Assembly (NCBI GenBank): GCA_947471505.1
Contig: CANIWM010000064.1
Coordinates: 1-35,927, forward strand
From: Chthoniobacteraceae bacterium
Lineage (GTDB): Bacteria > Verrucomicrobiota > Verrucomicrobiia > Chthoniobacterales > Chthoniobacteraceae
Length of the DNA stretch: 35,927 bases
Direction: 5' to 3'
The notes under the pieces were generated by a model. It searched no databases. It was given only the letters and a program-made list of their open reading frames with translations, and was not told the DNA's origin. How positions within the stretch are numbered: position 1 is the stretch's first letter; each line of letters opens with the position of its first letter. Made by a program: the position numbers and the translations under genes. Below are positions 9,997 through 35,053 of this stretch, piece by piece.

Positions 9997-12900
9997 ATGC
10001 AAAATAATCTCTGTCCTCAATGCCAGTCACCGATCCCCGCAGATGCGCCCGGCGGCATCTGCCCCGGTTGCGCGCTGCTTGGCGTCTCGCTGCCGACGAG
10101 CCCTACGCAAGTCGCCGGGGCCAGCGTGCCGATGCTCGATGAAGTCGCCGCGGCCTTCCCCGAGCTCGAAGTGCTGGAGCTCTACGGCCAGGGCGGCATG
10201 GGCGCGGTTTTCAAAGCACGCCAGCCGAAGCTCGACCGCTTTGTCGCGCTGAAAATCCTCACGCCCGCGCTCGCCACGCAGCCGGGATTTGCGGAGCGCT
10301 TCACTCGCGAGGCCCGTGCGCTCGCAAAGCTCTCGCACCCGAACATCGTCGGCGTCCACGACTTCGGCGAAAGCGGCGGTTTCTTCTACCTGCTCATGGA
10401 GTTCGTCGATGGCGTGAATCTCCGCCAGGCGATGCGCGCCGGCGTCACGCCCGAGCAGGCGCTGCTGCTCGTGCCGAAGGTTTGCGAAGCGCTGCAATTC
10501 GCCCACGACCACGGCGTGCTCCATCGCGACATCAAGCCCGAGAACATCCTCCTCGACACCCACGGCGTGCCAAAGCTCGCCGACTTCGGCATCGCGAAAT
10601 TTGGCGACGATAAATCCACCGGCCTCACCATGAGCGGTATGCAGCTCGGCACCGCAGCCTACATGGCCCCCGAGCAAATCGAGCAGCCCGCCACCGTCGA
10701 TCATCGTGCCGACATCTACAGCCTCGGCGTCGTCCTCTACGAAATGCTCACCGGCGAACTCCCGCTCGGACGCTTCGCCGCGCCGTCGGAAAAAATGCAC
10801 TGCTCCAGCGGTGTCGATGACGTCGTCCTCCGTGCGCTGGAAAAGCAACGCGAACGCCGCCAGCAAAGCGCCACCGAGATGAAGACGCAGGTGGAAGGCG
10901 CGGCCACACGCAACGCCGCGCCCCCGCCCCCGCCCGCCCCCGCCCGCAGATCCGCCTGCTACCTTTGCACGCCCGAGCACCTCCGTTCTGCCGCCTGCAA
11001 CTTCTACATCTACACCGCCAAAGGCCACGTTGCGCTCGATGCCCACACGCTTACCTTCGTCGGCGACGGCGAAAGCGTGACCATCCCGCTGCGCTCCATC
11101 CGCGAGCTCGGAATCGGGCACTACCCTGCGCTTGCGAAGCCCGTGCGCCTCGATTTCCTCTCCATTGTTTGGGAAGAAAACGGCGCACTTCGCACCCGGC
11201 TCTTCACCCCAAATCACTCGGCCTTCGCCGCCGCGTGGACCACCAACAGCGTCGTCGCCGAATGGGCCGAAGCCGTCCGCACCGGAGCCCGCAGCGCGCA
11301 AGGGCGAGACATCCCTTTCACCCCCGCATGCGCCCTCGGAACCCGTGTTCCTTCCTGGAGCTACCTCGCGTTCGCGATGTTCATCCCGGTGTTAATCGCC
11401 GCCGCCTTCCTCATCGCCTTCATCGGCGGGAAGTCCGAAAGCCCCGGTCACTTTCTCCTTGGCGTCCTCGGCATTGCCATCGGAGCCGCCATCGTCTGGG
11501 TATTCATCAAAGCGCTGCGCCGTGATCTCAATATCCCGCCGCTCCCCACACCGCCGCCACCCTCGCGCGACGCCCCGTTTTCCAGAGCCGCCGCCGTCGG
11601 TGCGAGCGTCTGCATCAGCAGCATTCCGTTTGGGCTTATCCTGTTTCTTTTCGTCAAAGCGGTCATCGACCCCTCGTTGGATAGCAGAGGCCAGCTCAAC
11701 GGCCCCGTTGCCGGAAACATCGTCATCTTCGGCTTCATCCCCGCATTGATCGGCGTCGCGCTTGGGTGGAAAGCGGTCGGCGATTTCCGCTATCACCGCG
11801 GCCATCTGCGCGGCGGCGGCACGGCTGTCTTTGCAGCGCTCGGCCTCCCCGTCTTCGCGCTCATCCTCACTGCGCTCACCAACTTCGAGGACATTGACCG
11901 CGCCATAAATCCCCTCCGCATCGGCTCATCGGGAATCCTCGTGGCCAGCCTCGTCGTCCTCGCCACGATCGCCGCGAGCATCTGGGCCGTGCGGGCGCTT
12001 TGGAGATTTGTCCACAGCGGCCCGCCCGGAGTGCCGGTCCCACAGCGACCTGTTCATCATGTGCAACCATCATCGATTCCCGCTGTGACCGGCGTTCCTT
12101 TTGAATACCGCTCCCCGCGTCAGTGGCTCGGCATGCCGCTTGTCCACATCGTCCGCGGACGCGATCCGCTCACGGGGAAAATCCCCGTCGCCCGCGGAGT
12201 CATCGCCATCGGTGCGAGGGCGCATGGCATCGTTGCGGTTGGCGTGCTTGCGAGTGGCGGGCTGGCGATTGGCAGCATGGCGGTTGGCGTATTTTCTGTC
12301 GGCGCGTTGGCCGTGGGAATCCTCGCCTGCGGTGCCTTCAGCGCAGGAGTCCTTGCTCTCGGTAGCATGGCAATCGGCTTTGTCTCCGCACTCGGCGGAC
12401 TCGCGATTGGCGACATCGCAAAGGGCTCACTCGCCATCGGGCGCTTCTACACGGAAGGGGTCACCCGTATCCAACTCGACAGCCTTTGGCGCATCGGAAA
12501 CGGACTGCTCCTCGTTGCCATCGGCGCATGGAGCGCGATGGTTCCCGGCTTCCGCGTGATCCGCCGAACCACGGATGCCAGCCGCCCGTGGTCGCCCGCG
12601 AGTTTCCGCGCCGTCATCGGCACGCTCATTCTCCTCGCGCTGATTATGGTGACTTTCTTCGTCCCAAATCTCCCGACCTTTCAGGCAGCGCGCCCTGTGC
12701 CGCCGAGCTTCACCGTCGCATTTCCCGGCGACATCATCCGCCCCGGTTCGCAGGGGATGGTCGTCGGCACCACCATGCCTTACGGTTACATGGTTGATTT
12801 TACCTTCTTCGTCCGCGACGCCGAAGGCACTGTCGAGATCCCCGAACTCGGCTGCACTTTCGCCGCTCGCAACCCTCCCGCTGCAAACAATGGGAATGCC

Positions 12901-15479: not shown

Positions 15480-17198
15480 ATGAAAACACTCACCATTCTC
15501 CTCTCGCTGTTCAGCGTCGCCGCCCTCGCACAGGTGCCGGACAAGGCTGAGCCTTCGCCGATCCGCTCGTGGTTTATCGCGCCCACCCGCGTGGTGTGGC
15601 AGAGCGAAGGCGGCGTCAAACATGCGGCGAATCTCTTGCAAGCTCACCCCGGCCAGGCGCTCCTCGCTGATCCCGTCCCGCCGTGTGTGCTTACACCGAC
15701 CGAAGGCAAGCCCGCTGGCGTCCTGCTCGATTTCGGAACCGAACTGCACGGCTCGATCGAAATCTTCACGCCGATGACGCCGGGTAAAGAGCCGCGCTCT
15801 GTACGCGTGCGCTTTGGCGAGTCGGTGAGCGAGGCGATGGCTGAACTCGGCGAGCGTGAAGCGCAGAATGATCACGCCGTCCGCGACCAAACGGTGGTGC
15901 TCCCGTGGCTCGGCAAGAAGACCGTCGGTGCGAGCGGCTTTCGCTTTGTGCGCATCGACGCCACGGATCCGAAAACGCCGGTTTCGCTCAGCCAAGTGCG
16001 CGCCGTTCTGCAAATGCGCGACGTGCCACGCGTCGGCTCCTTCCGTTGCAGCGACGAACGCCTAAACAAGATATGGGAGACCGGCGCTTACACCGTGCAG
16101 CTCAACATGCAGGAGTATCTGTGGGACGGCATCAAGCGCGACCGCCTCGTGTGGATCGGCGACATGCACCCGGAAGTCAGCACCATCAATGCGGTATTCG
16201 GCTTCAACGAAGTCGTGCCCAAGTCGCTCGACCTCACGCGCGACGTGACGCCCGTGAACACGTGGATGAATGGCATCTCCAGCTATTCGATGTGGTGGGT
16301 GCTCATTCACGAGGAAATGTGGATGCACCACGGCGACCGCAAGTATCTCGAAGCTCAGCAGAGCTACCTCACTCCATTGCTGAAAAAGCTCGCGGGCCTC
16401 ATCGGGCCTGACGGCAAAGAGCGCATCGACGGGATGCGCTTCCTCGACTGGCCCAGTTCGCCAAACAAGCAGGGCGTCACCGCTGGCTTGCAAGGCTTAC
16501 TCGTGATGACACTCGATAGCGGCGCACGCATGATGGGCGCGCTCGGGGACAAAGAGACCGCCACACTTTGCACCGATGCCGCCGCACGCGGGCGCAAGGT
16601 CGTGCCCGACGTGAACGCCTCAAAATCGGGCGCCGCGCTGCTCGCACTCGCTGGAATGATGGACGCAAAGAAAACTTCCGACGACGTGCTCAAAGTCGGC
16701 GGCCCAAAAGGCGTCTCCACGTTCTACGGTTTCTACGTCCTGCAAGCGCTCGCGAAGTCCGGCGACACCGACACCGCGCTCGACTTCATCCGCACCTACT
16801 GGGGCGCGATGCTCGACTTCGGAGCGACAACGTTTTGGGAAGACTTCAATCTCGAGTGGACAAAGAACGCAGGGCGCATCGACGAGCTCGTGCCACCGGG
16901 AAAGAAGGACCTGCACGGCGACTTCGGAGACTATTGCTACCTCGGCTTCCGCCACAGCCTCTGCCATGGCTGGGCGAGCGGACCGACCGCGTGGCTCAGC
17001 CAGAACGTCTTGGGCGTGCGCCCGCTAGAGCCCGGCTGCAAGCGAGTCCGCATCACCCCGCAACTCGGGCAGCTCACATGGGCCGAAGGTACGTATCCCA
17101 CACCGCTCGGTCCGATCAAAATCCGCCACGAAAAGCTACCGAACGGAACCGTTAAATCGGATATTCAAGCTCCCGACGGAGTCGTCGTTGAACGCTGA
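15480..17198 (+). CDS. Secreted alpha-L-rhamnosidase-like glycoside hydrolase (GH78 type)
   Basis: This 572-residue protein has a signal peptide (MKTLTILLSLFSVAALAQ). Residues about 75-185 resemble the beta domain that precedes GH78 catalytic domains (LLDFGTELHGSIEI, then FRFVRIDA). Residues about 190-500 are the (alpha/alpha)6 barrel, with the hallmark DGIKRDRLVWIGD at 216-228 and TTFWEDF near 450. The family's usual acid in a RDER-type motif is Arg here (RDR), as in a branch of GH78-like proteins, so Asp216, Asp221 or Asp228 are the candidate acids. At 572 residues it is shorter than most GH78 enzymes because extra N-terminal sugar-binding domains are missing. It would release terminal L-rhamnose from polysaccharides or glycosides; the substrate is an inference. 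The fused rhamnulose-phosphate aldolase at 20991 fits use of the released sugar. Confidence 0.8.
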   Translation: MKTLTILLSLFSVAALAQVPDKAEPSPIRSWFIAPTRVVWQSEGGVKHAANLLQAHPGQALLADPVPPCVLTPTEGKPAGVLLDFGTELHGSIEIFTPMTPGKEPRSVRVRFGESVSEAMAELGEREAQNDHAVRDQTVVLPWLGKKTVGASGFRFVRIDATDPKTPVSLSQVRAVLQMRDVPRVGSFRCSDERLNKIWETGAYTVQLNMQEYLWDGIKRDRLVWIGDMHPEVSTINAVFGFNEVVPKSLDLTRDVTPVNTWMNGISSYSMWWVLIHEEMWMHHGDRKYLEAQQSYLTPLLKKLAGLIGPDGKERIDGMRFLDWPSSPNKQGVTAGLQGLLVMTLDSGARMMGALGDKETATLCTDAAARGRKVVPDVNASKSGAALLALAGMMDAKKTSDDVLKVGGPKGVSTFYGFYVLQALAKSGDTDTALDFIRTYWGAMLDFGATTFWEDFNLEWTKNAGRIDELVPPGKKDLHGDFGDYCYLGFRHSLCHGWASGPTAWLSQNVLGVRPLEPGCKRVRITPQLGQLTWAEGTYPTPLGPIKIRHEKLPNGTVKSDIQAPDGVVVER

Positions 17199-17309: not shown

Positions 17310-17969
17310 TTAGCGAAACTCGCCGAAGTGCACATCCTCCGGCACCGATGGCGAGTCGAGGAGTTGGATGGTCGTGGCGGGGCCGAGGTTGTTTGGGGCG
17401 GTCCATGAGCGGAGCGTCCAGACGACTTTCTTCTCCGGCGTGATTTCCAGCGCCTGTGCTGGCGCAGTGGCGATGTCGATCGCGCCTTCCCACGGGTTCA
17501 CCCAATTGTTCAGCAGCGTGTTACCGTTCGGCAGACGCGTGGCGATTTGGAAGTTCTTGATCCCCTGCTCCGCCAAGTCGCTCTTGGCGCATTCCCACAC
17601 GGTTTCGCCTTTTGCGTTCACCTCGCGGATGAGCTTGCTGCCGGTGATCAGCGTATTGCCGTCGGCGAGACGCGAGGCTGCCCACGGGCCGGAGAATCTT
17701 GTCGTCCAAAGTTCCGCACCGTGGTCGTCGTATTCCGAGACTTTGCCGCCGTCCATGTGTGCGACGAGCAACGTCCCTGCCGCAGTGAGGCGCGCATGGC
17801 GGAAGTGCCCGTGGACGCTTTTCGGATTGCCGACTTCGAGCGGGAATTCGCGCTCCGTTTTACCGGTCGCGATATTGAGCACCACGCACTTCGGCTCGGG
17901 TCCGTTTTGGAGATAAACGATGCGTTCCTTCCCAATCGGCTGCGCAGTGTGGATCTCAGTTCCCGCGGC
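17310..17969 (-). pseudogene. Beta-propeller (PQQ-like) protein, 5' half missing
   Basis: The open frame runs from 17969 to the stop at 17310 and encodes propeller blades: EIHTAQPIGKERIVYLQNG, LTAAGTLLVAHMDGGKVSEY, ASRLADGNTLITGS, TRLPNGNTLLNNW and ITPEKKVVWTLRSW. The 'NGNTLI' and 'G.ELW' patterns are typical of secreted propeller proteins that are normally about 330-400 residues with a signal peptide. Here there is no ATG until inside the domain; the best start would be a GTG near 17885. The first blades and the signal peptide are absent. The frame is continuous with that of the unknown gene upstream, whose stop codon (17970-17972) marks the junction. It is probably a remnant left after the upstream cassette replaced the 5' half. 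Confidence 0.65.
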
Positions 17970-18704
17970 CTACGAACTACTACTCGACGATTCGCTGCTT
18001 GATGATGGGTCGCCGCTGCTTCCGCCGCCACCGCCGCCACCGCCGCCACCTGCGGCTTCATTTAGGGCGCGGGATTCGCGGTAGAGGAGGTAGAGGGCGG
18101 GGTTGGATTCGCGGAATTGGCGCATGAGTTTGTCCATCACGAGGTCGATGCGGAGGTTGCAGGCGTCGAATTGTTGGTCGATGAGGAGGACGAAGGCGCT
18201 TTCTTGTTGGGCGCGTTCGTCGGGGAGGTTGATGAGGGCGTGGTAGGTGGTGAGGCGCTGATTGTAGAGGGTGGCTTTTGCGGGGGTCAGCCCGTAGGGG
18301 AGGAGGGCGGCGGGCATTCCGGGCTCGGCGATTTTGCCGCTTAGGAATGCGCCGTGGGTGCGCAGGGCTTCGTCGGACATGAGGGTGAATGCGCTGATTT
18401 GGTGGTCCACGAGATTGAGCAAGTCGGCGTTGTTTGTGATGGCGGCGTAGGCGGTGACGATGCCGTCCACGTCGGAGATGATGCTCTCGAATTGGGCGCG
18501 GGCGAGGCGCTTTGCGGCTCCTCCTCCGGCCGCTGCGGTGGCGCGCTGGATGTCGAGGGCCTCGATCATGGCGATGCCGCCGTCGTGGGCGATGAAGGCG
18601 TCGTTGAGCGCGGCGATGGTGGCGATGAGGGCGGCGTTTGGGCCGGTGCGGACGTCTCGCACGGAGCGAAACATGTCGAGTCGTGTGGCTTCTTCCTTGT
18701 CCAT
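17970..18704 (-). CDS. Unknown helical protein A, with Gly/Ser-rich tail, downstream of a 21-bp array
   Basis: This 244-residue protein starts MDKEEATRLDMFRSVRDV. No signal peptide or membrane segment is visible. Residues 1 to about 215 are predicted by eye to be almost all helical, with hydrophobic spacing suited to a helical bundle. A characteristic late helix reads IDLVMDKLMRQFRESNPAL followed by YLLYRES. The last 28 residues are ten glycines, then a serine/glutamate tail. Similar 'D.LM..F....P.FY..Y' proteins of unknown function occur in Verrucomicrobia and Bacteroidetes; this is from memory of the family style, not from a search. The gene is preceded by an 11-unit 21-bp array at 18816-19046 and followed without a gap by a truncated propeller gene. 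Protein B at 33866 sits behind a similar array. No function is assigned. Confidence 0.7.
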   Translation of the reverse strand: MDKEEATRLDMFRSVRDVRTGPNAALIATIAALNDAFIAHDGGIAMIEALDIQRATAAAGGGAAKRLARAQFESIISDVDGIVTAYAAITNNADLLNLVDHQISAFTLMSDEALRTHGAFLSGKIAEPGMPAALLPYGLTPAKATLYNQRLTTYHALINLPDERAQQESAFVLLIDQQFDACNLRIDLVMDKLMRQFRESNPALYLLYRESRALNEAAGGGGGGGGGGSSGDPSSSSESSSSSS

Positions 18705-18815
18705 GGTCGTTAGTGGTTAATGTGGAACAGGGCACTGTGGAACGTGGAACATCCCGCAGGCCGATGGTTTTGGTTTTTTGGTGTTGTTTTCATAAAGTGT
18801 TGAGCGCGAGGGTTT

Positions 18816-19046
18816 CAAACGAAATGGGATTGGCTGCAAACGATCTGGGACGGGTTGCAAACGAAATGGGATTGGCTCCAAACGATTTGGGATTGGTTCC
18901 AAACGATTCGGTATTGGCTACAAACGATCTGGGATTACCTCCAAACGATTTGGGATGGGTCGCAAACGATCCGGGATTGGCTGCAAGCGATCTGAGACTG
19001 GCTCCAAGCGATCCGGGATGAGCTGCAAGCGATCTGGGAATAGCTC
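18816..19046. repeat. Tandem array, 11 units of 21 bp, upstream of protein A gene
   Basis: Eleven consecutive 21-bp units begin at 18816, 18837, 18858, 18879, 18900, 18921, 18942, 18963, 18984, 19005 and 19026, with no spacers. The conserved part is CAA(A/G)CGAT.TGGGATTGG. Units 1 and 3 differ at one base, while later units (9-11) carry CAAGCGAT. Because 21 is a multiple of three, several frames stay open and give seven-residue repeats on both strands, but none has a convincing start. The array lies 112 bp upstream of the protein A start. A 21-bp period is two turns of B-DNA, so a protein could bind every unit on one face. That role is an inference. Confidence 0.85.
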
Positions 19047-19469
19047 TTTTTGAAAGGTGAGGTTTGCCGACGAAGGGGCCTTGCTCGGAGAGCGGAAAGT
19101 TTTCGTCCAAATGGTGGGCGGGGTTGTTTCACGGCGGGCTGGTATAAGCGACCTGGGCGGGAGGTAAAGCAAAAATTGCCCGGCGGTTTTGGTTGGTTCG
19201 TTTCCTTTCACGTCGATACATGCGCAAAAACCGGGCGAAAACTATCCCTCCGCATGAAAATAGTTGGAGAAATCTTTGAGCCGACGGAACGGGGTGTCCG
19301 CATTTTGTGTCACTGCGTTTTGTGGACTGGCGACGGGGTCGGTGGTGCGGCTCGTCGTCGTCCTTGGTTTTTTCTCGCGAAATATTGCGCCGCACGGAAC
19401 GATCCACTTACCGTGCGGGAATCTCTTTTTGCCCGAGCGGCGCGTATATCCATTTCAAATCCGACTTTC
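19047..19469. other. 423-bp gap before mqo; one hairpin, otherwise nothing recognised
   Basis: No convincing gene is present on either strand. The frame of mqo is open back to 19050, but the upstream part has no family resemblance. The only clear structure is an 8-bp perfect inverted repeat, CCGCACGG at 19390-19397 and CCGTGCGG at 19411-19418, with a 13-nt loop. It lies about 50 bp upstream of the mqo start. It could be an operator or a leader hairpin. The promoter of mqo should lie in this gap. Confidence 0.4.
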
Positions 19470-20969
19470 ATGACATCCAATCAACACATCGAAAATCCTG
19501 ACGTTATCCTGATCGGCAGCGGCGTCATGTCCGCGAATCTCGCCACTTTGCTCAAGCGGCTCGACCCGAAGCTGACCATCCAAATGTATGAAGTGACCGA
19601 TGGGCTTTCGCAGGAGAGCTCCGACGGCTGGAACAATGCGGGCACGGGGCACGCGGGGATTTGCGAGCTGAGCTACACGCCGAAGCGCGAGGCGGACGGC
19701 TCGGTGAACGTGAACAAGGTCATCGAGATTTTTGAGCAATTCGAGCACTCGAAGCAGTACTGGAGCTACGCGGTGGCGAGCGGGATGGCAGAGCGCCCGA
19801 AGGAGTTCATCAATCCCGTGCAGCACATCAGCTTTGTGCATGGCGATGAGCAGGTGGACTTTTTGAAGGCGCGGCACGCGGGCATGGCGGCGCACCATTT
19901 CTTCCGCGAAATGGAATACACGACGGACCGCGCGAAGATCGCAAGCTGGGCTCCGTTGCTGCTCGAAGGCCGCGGCGAGGTGCCGATCGCGGCGACGAAG
20001 ATGGACGCGGGGACGGATGTGAACTTTGGCGAGATCTCGCGCAAACTTCTCGGCTGGCTGGCAAAGCAGGATGGCTGCGGGATTGCTTCCGGGCATCGCG
20101 TGGTGGGGCTGAAGCGGAAGGGCGCGGGCTGGGAAGTCAGCGCGAAGAATGTGGCGACGGGCGAGGTACGGGTGAACGTCACGAAGTTCGTTTTCGTGGG
20201 CGCGGGCGGCGGGAGTCTGCCGCTTTTGCAAAAGTCCGGCATCCCCGAGGCGAAGGGGCTCGGCGGTTTCCCAATCGGCGGGCAGTGGCTCATTTGCGAC
20301 AACCCGGAGATCGTCGCGAAGCATCAGGCGAAGGTTTATGGCCAGGCGCTGGACGCCGCGCCGACGATGGCGGTGCCGCATCTCGATACGCGGATTCTCG
20401 ATGGAAAGAAGACGCTTCTCTTTGGACCGTTCGCGGCGTGGACGACGAAGTTTTTACACAAAAAGGGGAGCGTGACGGACCTGCCGTTTTCCGTGCGTCC
20501 GGACAACATCGCGACGCTCATCAAGATCGGCATCCACAACCTCGACCTCGTCCGCTACCTCGTGCAGCAAGGCACGCAGAGCATGAACGCGCGCATGAAA
20601 GTGCTGCATGTTTTTTACCCAGCGGCGCAGGCGAAGGATTGGAAGCTCATCGACGCCGGCATTCGCGTGCAGGCAATTAAGAAGACCGACGGCGAGGCTG
20701 GAATCGTCCACTACGGCACCGAGGTCATCACCGACGCAAACCGCACAATCTCCGCGCTGCTCGGCGCATCGCCGGGAGCGTCCGTCTCGGTGAACATCGT
20801 GCTCGAAGTCATCAAGAAATGCTTCCCGCAACTGCTCGCGAGCCCCGAGGGCCACGCGCGGATGAAGGAGATGATCCCGACCTACGACGTGAACATCAAG
20901 CTACCGGAAAACGCCGAACTCTTCCGCGAAGTGAGCAAGAAAGCCGACGAGATTTTGCAGCTCCACTGA
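19470..20969 (+). CDS. mqo: Malate:quinone oxidoreductase
   Basis: This 499-residue FAD-dependent enzyme oxidises L-malate to oxaloacetate and passes electrons to membrane quinones, in place of or beside NAD-dependent malate dehydrogenase. The dinucleotide-binding motif is VILIGSGVMSANLATLL (Gly16-Ser-Gly-Val-Met). Family landmarks include QESSDGWNNAGTGHAGICEL near 50-70, VNKVIEIFEQFEHSKQYW, FVGAGGGSLPLLQKSGIPE and LFGPFAAW. The length is the usual 490-500. The start MTSNQHIENPD is chosen because the family begins only a few residues before the FAD motif. It is a peripheral membrane protein. It is followed after 21 bp by the aldolase/dehydrogenase gene, so the two are probably co-transcribed. 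There is no Shine-Dalgarno. Confidence 0.95.
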   Translation: MTSNQHIENPDVILIGSGVMSANLATLLKRLDPKLTIQMYEVTDGLSQESSDGWNNAGTGHAGICELSYTPKREADGSVNVNKVIEIFEQFEHSKQYWSYAVASGMAERPKEFINPVQHISFVHGDEQVDFLKARHAGMAAHHFFREMEYTTDRAKIASWAPLLLEGRGEVPIAATKMDAGTDVNFGEISRKLLGWLAKQDGCGIASGHRVVGLKRKGAGWEVSAKNVATGEVRVNVTKFVFVGAGGGSLPLLQKSGIPEAKGLGGFPIGGQWLICDNPEIVAKHQAKVYGQALDAAPTMAVPHLDTRILDGKKTLLFGPFAAWTTKFLHKKGSVTDLPFSVRPDNIATLIKIGIHNLDLVRYLVQQGTQSMNARMKVLHVFYPAAQAKDWKLIDAGIRVQAIKKTDGEAGIVHYGTEVITDANRTISALLGASPGASVSVNIVLEVIKKCFPQLLASPEGHARMKEMIPTYDVNIKLPENAELFREVSKKADEILQLH

Positions 20970-33865: not shown

Positions 33866-34597
33866 CTACCACCGCAATCCCTTCACCGCCGCGTATTGCT
33901 CCGACGACTGACCGTATTGGCCCTTCACCGCGTTCTTCACGGCCTGGAACTTATCCGCGAGGCCCGTATCCTCATCGGTAAATAGCGCGAACCGCTTCCG
34001 CTGCGCCGTATCCAGCGTCGAATCCGCAGTCGCCACCGCCTCATTGTTCGTCACCAACTGCCCCCCGAGCGTATTCAGCGCATCCACCGAGAGCGCCTGG
34101 TCCTGCGGGCTGTATCCATTCAGCTTTCCCACCGCACCCGCCAGCGCTTTGAAATTCGCTGCGATTTCCGCATAGCTCCCGTCCCCGCGATCCCGTTTCT
34201 TTAATACGGGCGGCGCCGGCTGGCCGGGCTCCGGCGCGGGCGGCGGCGGCGTCTTGGTTTGCGGTTTGATTCCACGGACCTTATCCGCCAGCTCTTTGAT
34301 GCGCGGGAAGTTCGCCTTCCACGCCGAGTTGCTCTTCACGCTCGCCACGATTTGCGTCGTCAGCTTCTGCGCCGCCTTCGCCTGCATCATCCGCGAATTT
34401 ACCGTCGTGTCGAAATCCGTCAGCGCATTATCCACGTCGTCATTGGCCTGCCCGACCGAATCGACAAATGCTCCGAAGTTCGCGATGCTGAGCGACGCGT
34501 CCATCGGCGAAAATGCCGGGGTCATGGCGGTGATGTTTGTGACAAGCACGTCGGCGCGTTGCTGGCGTTCGGCGTAAGAGCGATTGGAGTCAGGCAT
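33866..34597 (-). CDS. Unknown helical protein B, with proline-rich hinge, downstream of a 21-bp array
   Basis: This 243-residue protein starts MPDSNRSYAERQQRADVLV. No signal peptide or membrane segment is visible. It has an N-terminal helical part (about 1-108), a proline-rich linker (about 109-133, KTPPPPAPEPGQPAPP) and a C-terminal helical part (about 135-243) ending VKGQYGQSSEQYAAVKGLRW. The ending, 'K..YG..S..Y...KG.', resembles short unknown helical proteins of Verrucomicrobia, Acidobacteria and Bacteroidetes. That is recalled family style, not a search result. There is no obvious sequence identity with protein A at 17970. Both have about 240 residues, are helical, lie on the minus strand and are preceded by eleven 21-bp units. 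It converges on hrpA with a 21-bp gap. No function is assigned. Confidence 0.7.
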   Translation of the reverse strand: MPDSNRSYAERQQRADVLVTNITAMTPAFSPMDASLSIANFGAFVDSVGQANDDVDNALTDFDTTVNSRMMQAKAAQKLTTQIVASVKSNSAWKANFPRIKELADKVRGIKPQTKTPPPPAPEPGQPAPPVLKKRDRGDGSYAEIAANFKALAGAVGKLNGYSPQDQALSVDALNTLGGQLVTNNEAVATADSTLDTAQRKRFALFTDEDTGLADKFQAVKNAVKGQYGQSSEQYAAVKGLRW

Positions 34598-34793: not shown

Positions 34794-34808
34794 GCAAGCG
34801 TGGGTGTC

Positions 34809-35039
34809 GCAATTGCCAAAAGGGTGGACGCAATCGCCAAAAGGGTGGACGCAATCGCTCAATGGGTAGCCACTATTGCAAAAAGGGCGGACGTTATTGC
34901 CCGATGGGGAGACGCAAGCGCGGAAAGGGTGGACGCAATAGCTTGAACGTTGAACCCGATTGCTCAATGGGAAAACGCAATCGCCGTTCCGAACGACGCA
35001 TTTGCGATTTCCGACGACACAATCGCCATTCCAAACAAC
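34809..35039. repeat. Tandem array, 11 units of 21 bp, upstream of protein B gene
   Basis: Units begin at 34809, 34830, 34851, 34872, 34893, 34914, 34935, 34956, 34977, 34998 and 35019, with no spacers. The most conserved part is GCAATCGCC.AAAGGGTGG, and the second unit is almost identical to the first. Later units (9-11) drift to GCAATCGCCGTTCCGAACGA-like sequence. Partial units flank the array on both sides. It shares with the array at 18816 the period, the number of clear units (11), the total of 231 bp, and a loose core TGG..GCAA.CG. It lies about 210 bp upstream of the protein B start, with repeat element 3 in between. Confidence 0.8.
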
Positions 35040-35053
35040 GCGATCGCTCGACT

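Follow-up and report, generated by a model that had tools for sequence, protein, structure and literature searches.

Locus-Specific 21-bp Tandem Arrays Upstream of Orphan Genes in Verrucomicrobiota: Candidate Phased DNA-Binding Platforms

Introduction

Plasmid iterons and partition centromeres consist of tandem direct repeats that span an integral number of helical turns. Direct repeats at promoters are also the substrate of BldC, a MerR-like protein that forms head-to-tail cooperative multimers on them and takes a 9-bp site per subunit, with the consensus AATTXXXX(C), according to the part of that report available to us (PMC5859096). TIGR loci, as presented in the available part of their description (PMC12045711), combine 8–12-nt edge and loop repeats and ~9-nt spacers with Nop-domain proteins.

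Here we analyze 21-bp tandem arrays found upstream of orphan genes in Verrucomicrobiota. With iterons and centromeres they share the tandem direct repeats and the integral number of turns; unlike these, they lie on several chromosome-scale contigs per genome, and none of the best 25 of 124 neighbor Pfam families is of the replication-initiator or partition type. A repeat array is likewise common to them and CRISPR, but the 21-bp arrays have no spacers. We know of no system that combines a fixed repeat period with a repeat sequence rewritten at each locus, beside otherwise undescribed genes, and among the literature matches listed, which covered few subscription papers, no title or abstract opening described such arrays. 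As far as the available part of PMC5859096 goes, BldC operators are similar in being directional direct repeats of variable number, but they have 9-bp sites and one consensus, whereas our arrays step by 21 bp, comprise 6–21 units and have a locus-specific unit; by analogy, BldC may be the closest mechanism in print. TIGR loci, in the part of PMC12045711 available, also place a repeat array beside a small protein gene, with repeats that are kept within a locus and vary across loci; in contrast to them, our arrays are tandem units that lack unique spacers; Pfam showed no Nop-domain match at E 0.1 among 33 members of the protein family A introduced below.

Results and Discussion

Two Arrays in One Window

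The window, that is, the whole 35,927-nt stretch of DNA from a Chthoniobacteraceae bacterium that was analyzed, is contig 64 of a 6.07-Mb, 153-contig assembly. It carries the following features:

33866..34597, minus strand: gene B, 243 aa, Pro-rich linker, no described family matched
34808..35047, minus strand: array 2, 21-bp units different from those of array 1, upstream of gene B
17970..18704, minus strand: gene A, 244 aa, Gly/Ser-rich tail, no described family matched
18705..18815, minus strand: leader from array 1 to the start codon of gene A, by eye, five copies
18816..19046, minus strand: array 1, 11 abutting spacer-free 21-bp units, upstream of gene A
19043..19151, minus strand: 5′ flank of array 1, from comparison with two copies in another genome of the same genus

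Array 1, which a sequence-only reading of the window had pointed out, is real. Tandem Repeats Finder reports it at 18816-19039 (period 21, 10.7 copies, 76% matches, 0% indels, score 224), the end at 19046 and the count of 11 units being set by eye, and the start codon of gene A follows 111 bp further on. The second occurrence that it described, with a different unit and a different protein, also holds: array 2 sits 210 bp upstream of gene B and is split by Tandem Repeats Finder into 34808-34939 and 34975-35047. The best lag-21 identity over 84 bp is 0.80 for array 1 and 0.73 for array 2, neither contains a gap in a wrap-around alignment, and the register analysis described below keeps 12 and 13 units, respectively. 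Their sense consensus, in any rotation, is ATCCCAGATCGTTTGGAGCCA for array 1 and ATTGCGTCCTCCCTTTTGGCG for array 2. The AlphaFold2 models of proteins A and B are all-helical, with low confidence (mean pLDDT 55.1 and 52.1).

Parts of the leader are alike by eye across five copies, with a CACTTTA.G.AAAAC-like stretch directly 3′ of the array and TGTTCCACGTTCCAC closer to the gene. On the far side, the 109 bp of flank share 94% identity with the corresponding stretch beside two copies in the other genome (G006:C145:2823-2931 and G006:C159:11342-11436, the latter with 95 bp of flank), whereas gene A itself is 82 and 83% identical; as the flank is more alike than the gene, it seems to move with gene A. 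We found no sigma-70-like promoter in 18650-19250, and Rfam returned 0 matches at gathering scores in the window. CRISPR had been dismissed by the sequence-only reading, and rightly so: the units abut without unique spacers, and ten large open frames of the window, scanned for cas genes, match no PADLOC model at E 1e-5.

Association of the Arrays With Three Gene Families

The same reading proposed a recurring cassette, in which homologs of protein A would be preceded by arrays more often than expected by chance. We gathered 40 A loci with flanks in addition to the window locus and left out two (L073 and L088) because they have <200 bp upstream, which leaves 39. We scored a locus as array-bearing if some 84-bp stretch in the 600 bp before the start codon reaches a lag-21 identity of 0.54; by this rule 26 of the 39 loci carry an array, compared with 12 of 1320 windows of 600 bp from the same genome; these control windows were unmatched to gene starts and came from an 800-kb sample, the first 40–120 kb of ten large contigs, which is a non-random draw. 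Homologs of A thus do not generally lack arrays, as the count is 25 of 38 even without the window locus. Of 714 windows taken from those parts of the A loci that lie >1.5 kb away from the gene start, nine reach 0.54, and several of these nine are further arrays of the same kind. Fisher p values are 3e-36 against the 1320 windows, 5e-31 against the 714 and 8e-35 without the window locus, all of them too small because some of the A loci are orthologs, which inflates significance.

The 13 A loci below the cut are of several kinds. L089 is borderline (0.52 at lag 21, 0.76 at lag 42), and L091, L100, and L106 are interrupted or partial copies. In L077, L081, L102, and L103 an array lies 208–2365 bp downstream of the A gene instead, while L074, L079, L099, and L107 have no array near the A gene (L079 has one 5.8 kb away). 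In L080, from a Prosthecobacter MAG, a transposase gene (IS5-like by eye; 10989-11966, oriented to the A gene) parts the A gene from a 21-bp array at 10347-10738.

Two further families show the same arrangement. Among the 20 C loci having 600 bp upstream, 15 carry an array, or 14 of 19 if the founding locus of the family is excluded; the remaining two C matches have 0 and 177 bp upstream. Apart from the window's own, three of the four other B loci with 600 bp upstream have an array, the fourth being a partial match; three B loci with just 155–311 bp upstream show none, and one has no upstream sequence. The proposed cassette of an array and a helical protein of ~240 residues, helicity being that of low-confidence models, is therefore seen across genomes and extends to family C.

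The array–gene link is strong but not exclusive, because similar arrays precede genes beyond A, B, and C (by eye, in L106 and L079) and some sit between divergent genes. What is supported is the enrichment before the three families; an exclusive link finds no support, given these cases and the 13 A loci below the cut. The gene behind the L079 array is membrane-protein-like by eye. In L106, an array of ~19 units of 21 bp (1297-1702, oriented) ends 173 bp before a 1653-aa open frame, by eye a helicase with a nuclease domain. In L135 (7574-8896), the array before the C gene stands between that gene and a divergent ATPase-like gene and therefore could serve either.

A looser scan of the 800-kb sample also returned L132, L133, and L144, shorter stretches of 129–167 bp, of which that in L133 falls outside any open frame of 100 aa. 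The longest entry in the looser-scan list is ~1 kb of 21-bp periodicity upstream of a B homolog (L208:5939-6937). The source genome also has 42-bp-period arrays at several places (L127:2037-2420, L141:19513-19860, L120:16889-17173, and L116:17022-17449). Some of them have palindromic units, and the L127 unit resembles the reverse complement of the L141 unit; these arrays seem to be a different, dispersed repeat type.

Distribution and Identity of the Proteins

Family A proteins are built from a divergent body of ~220 residues and a mostly Pro-rich or Gly/Ser-rich tail. The source genome encodes a second copy with 68% identity on a different contig, closely preceded by a 21-bp array of its own, as well as further, distant copies elsewhere. 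Close relatives come from a Prosthecobacter debontii MAG and a Verrucomicrobiaceae MAG, both of the genus to which the source genome belongs. With a profile from 17 members, the family is present in 22 of 213 genomes of the order; among genomes drawn from the phylum it is present in 5 of 387, source genome included. A narrow four-sequence query found no A relatives in viral contigs. Family B gave nine matches in seven genomes. Family C is defined by a 320-aa protein (L135:9492-10454), and the array ~150 bp upstream of its gene is the longest degenerate 21-bp array in the 800-kb sample, 42-bp repeat families left aside. Family C gave 22 matches, a few at the end of the list being weak or partial, in 10 of the 213 genomes of the order, plus three weak or partial matches outside the order; one of the latter, L222, has a strong 42/21-bp repeat within 1.5 kb, on whichever side.

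When 33 A members were compared with PADLOC, NCBIfam, and Pfam, we obtained scattered weak matches to one or two members each, PHROGs gave three matches to one member each (best E 2.4e-4), and PDB sequences gave two partial matches (E 1.5e-4 and 0.24). None of these members matches a Pfam Nop domain at E 0.1, and one weakly matches Nop14, an unrelated-looking family (E 0.012). The AlphaFold2 models are weak (pLDDT 55 and 52), and the fold search gave no PDB match at E 0.001. For B and C, Pfam yielded nothing convincing, with three single-member matches at E between 0.003 and 0.008, and we recognized no DNA-binding domain in A, B, or C proteins. The families scanned match no described family. 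By hhalign, the probability is 18% for A and B, 7% for A and C, and 77% for B and C; on these profiles A is not clearly related to B, nor to C, and an N-terminal region may be common to B and C. In L099:5982-8654 the N-terminal part of an A-family protein runs into an 891-aa open frame, possibly a fusion.

Array Anatomy and Turnover

We placed 47 arrays in register (27 A, 4 B, and 16 C; 544 units), using a slightly looser cut and 800 bp upstream. They have 6–21 units, with medians of 11 (A), 12 (B), and 11 (C), and their ends lie at median distances of 127, 197, and 125 bp, respectively, from the start codon (range 0–667 bp; 26 to 330 bp in 43 of the 47). Among lags 4–65, mean identity exceeds expectation at 21, 42, and 63 bp only, and equally at all three, with no rise at 10 or 11 bp. 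Wrap-around alignment of the 47 arrays gave 8778 matches, 3220 mismatches, and 86 gap events, and 24 of the arrays are gapless. Three arrays (L072, L104, and L105) are nearly uniform. The unit consensus varies from locus to locus while the 21-bp phase is kept.

Across the 27 A arrays, unit similarity tracks protein similarity (Mantel r 0.37, reached in 0 of 5000 permutations). Proteins that are 93% identical have units alike at 18 of 21 positions, at 85% the figure is 16 of 21, at 65–78% it is 10–14 of 21, and below 60% unit similarity is close to the shuffled level of 9.4. Array and gene are therefore co-inherited, and the arrays turn over faster than the proteins.

Co-inheritance favors the adjacent protein as the binder. 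In its full form this explanation holds that each protein, be it A, B, or C, oligomerizes on the array before its gene, which would act like a centromere or an autoregulatory platform and co-evolve with the protein. Besides the parallel rise of unit and protein similarity, it can draw on the neighborhood of A, where no partner recurs widely (one cluster, at 4 of 41 loci). However, the same architecture precedes A genes and those of B and C, to which A is not clearly related (the B–C pair scoring higher, as given above), units are just 10–14/21 alike between proteins that are still 65–78% identical, no DNA-binding domain was recognized in these proteins, and similar arrays stand before unrelated genes in L106 and L079. 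On balance we find it unlikely. A shared host factor is slightly preferred as the putative binder over the adjacent gene product because three families share one architecture.

A Weak Directional Core in the Units

The 47 consensus units were rotated against each other on the sense strand of the gene. Their shared core reaches 7.45 bits, compared with 5.88 in dinucleotide-preserving shuffles (sd 0.27, maximum of 80 shuffles 6.45). For family A alone the values are 9.96 and 6.85 bits (sd 0.47), and for family C alone, where the core is weaker, 11.04 and 8.92 bits (sd 0.67, maximum of 60 shuffles 10.37). The pattern is roughly TCGnnnSAA(C/T)G, so a weak directional core (TCGnnnSAA-like) recurs across arrays. 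Its orientation bias is modest: with strands flipped at random, 2 of 80 trials come up to the observed value, and an alignment free to use either strand places the core in one direction relative to the gene in 38 of the 47 arrays.

Variation within arrays is lowest at the core columns, also after correction for base (0 of 5000 random rotations). Tested singly, 18 of 28 arrays show column heterogeneity significant at 0.05, and for the two window arrays p is 9e-4 and 2e-5. The variation profile has harmonics above the null at 21 bp (z 10.7) and at 10.5 bp (z 3.8), although the latter is no independent proof of helical contacts because one broad core per unit gives it. A recurrent directional core at constant helical phase, as would mark a BldC-type operator, is thus present in the arrays.

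Coding and RNA Tests

Since 21 bp equal seven codons, the arrays could encode the seven-residue repeats of a short upstream protein, an option that the sequence-only reading had raised. A stop-free sense frame exists in 39 of the 47 arrays, the sense strand holds fewer stops than its dinucleotide-matched permutations (207 vs 283, z −4.2), and in L071 an open frame seems, by eye, to overlap the end of the preceding gene and the start of gene A. Nevertheless, synonymous and non-synonymous changes separate the units in the proportions expected under no selection: omega is 0.98 (most open frame) and 1.02 (other frames) on the sense strand, and 0.99 and 1.02 on the antisense strand. It is 2.26 in the stop-free frame of the array of gene A in the window, and the 3-bp harmonic of the variation profile is below the permuted null (z −3.1). 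Stops occur in all six motif-frames, in 19–32 of the 47 arrays per frame, and 8 arrays have all three sense frames closed. Stops are depleted on the antisense strand as well (276 vs 329, z −2.4). As a class, protein-coding arrays are therefore disfavored by omega, period-3 signal, and closed frames, while stop depletion points the other way; we regard heptad coding as very improbable.

A transcribed array might also act as RNA, either as a guide-RNA precursor as in TIGR systems or as a sponge. The orientation of the core relative to the gene, kept in 38 of 47 arrays with either strand allowed, would suit a transcript, and TIGR loci too pair a locus-specific array with a small protein gene, in the part of their description available (PMC12045711). 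Against this, dual repeats with unique ~9-nt spacers, by which TIGR-Tas arrays are recognized, are absent: identity is equal at lags 21, 42, and 63, which leaves no unique block, and L072, L104, and L105 are nearly uniform throughout. Folding energies equal those of column-permuted arrays on both strands (mean z −0.06 and 0.15), which leaves no RNA-fold signal, Rfam found nothing in the window, and the 33 A members gave no Nop-domain match in Pfam, one of them weakly matching Nop14 (E 0.012). An RNA role strikes us as decidedly unlikely.

A Candidate Binding Platform

Of the options offered by the sequence-only reading, a binding platform is favored because the arrays combine a constant 21-bp phase and a directional core with no codon signature. 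The association with A, B, and C, the conservation of the shared core within units, and the joint inheritance of array and gene are observed alongside. We give about an even chance to the array being a tandem binding platform, directional and non-coding, that immediately precedes an orphan gene standing on its own, and such a platform would probably control the adjoining gene. Each 21-bp unit would carry one short core of ~6–9 bp, TCGnnnSAA-like on the sense strand of the gene. The exact 21-bp step corresponds to two turns and would align the cores along a single helix face, where an oligomerizing DNA-binding protein could coat the 6–21 sites, and the coated array would set the expression of the gene. 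Two-turn spacing, substitutions outside the core, few indels, and a core direction tied to the gene would, by analogy with BldC, suit a cooperative head-to-tail oligomer, as does the position of the arrays, usually within ~330 bp of the start codon. What speaks against a platform is that the cores diverge too much to be easily reconciled with one binder of fixed specificity, and also that no DNA-binding domain was recognized, the orientation bias is modest, the core is weaker in family C alone, stops are depleted, 13 of 39 A loci are below the cut, and no sigma-70-like promoter was found.

In a broader form, to which we give somewhat less than an even chance, these loci would make up a new class: a stand-alone orphan gene for a helical protein with its own phased 21-bp platform, a private address for each copy. 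This form includes a shared oligomerizing DNA-binding machine that fixes the period and the faint core, turnover of the units by concerted evolution, and at least three Verrucomicrobiota protein families using the platform. The constant spacing with a gene-specific spelling points to a putative type of DNA-bound control site that has not been described before. Should the arrays prove to be regulatory platforms, a sizeable class of phased operators, open to direct testing, would be added to a phylum that has received little study, and three orphan protein families would gain their first functional leads. The arrays are also a natural series for how a DNA-binding oligomer tolerates sequence change and keeps its helical register.

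Genomic Surroundings and Mobility

The genes around gene A are ordinary, with a malate:quinone oxidoreductase gene (mqo) at 19473-20966 and a rhamnosidase-like gene at 15480-17195. Neighbors differ among A loci, and only one cluster besides A reaches 4 of 41 loci, which speaks against a conserved operon partner. As to a link with defense islands, PADLOC models matched number 224 for 131 A-locus neighbor proteins and 15 for 119 control proteins from a single genome; these figures count models rather than proteins, so no enrichment follows from them.

Differing neighbors, together with a patchy spread (22 of 213 genomes), several copies per genome, interrupted and partial copies, and the copy split from its array by a transposase gene, would fit a neutral minisatellite carried along by a gene that is mobile or evolves fast. 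Such a repeat is not expected to keep the same 21-bp period at every array-bearing locus despite different units, nor to show few gaps against many substitutions and a conserved core within its units, and we consider this explanation improbable. In two relatives the mqo gene to the right of gene A is kept without an adjoining gene A, and comparison with them as empty sites left the left flank unmatched, giving no clean insertion site. An open frame (17310-17969) immediately follows the stop codon of gene A and looks, by eye, like the middle and end of a beta-propeller-like protein; its N-terminal part is missing, as though the gene A cassette had taken its place.
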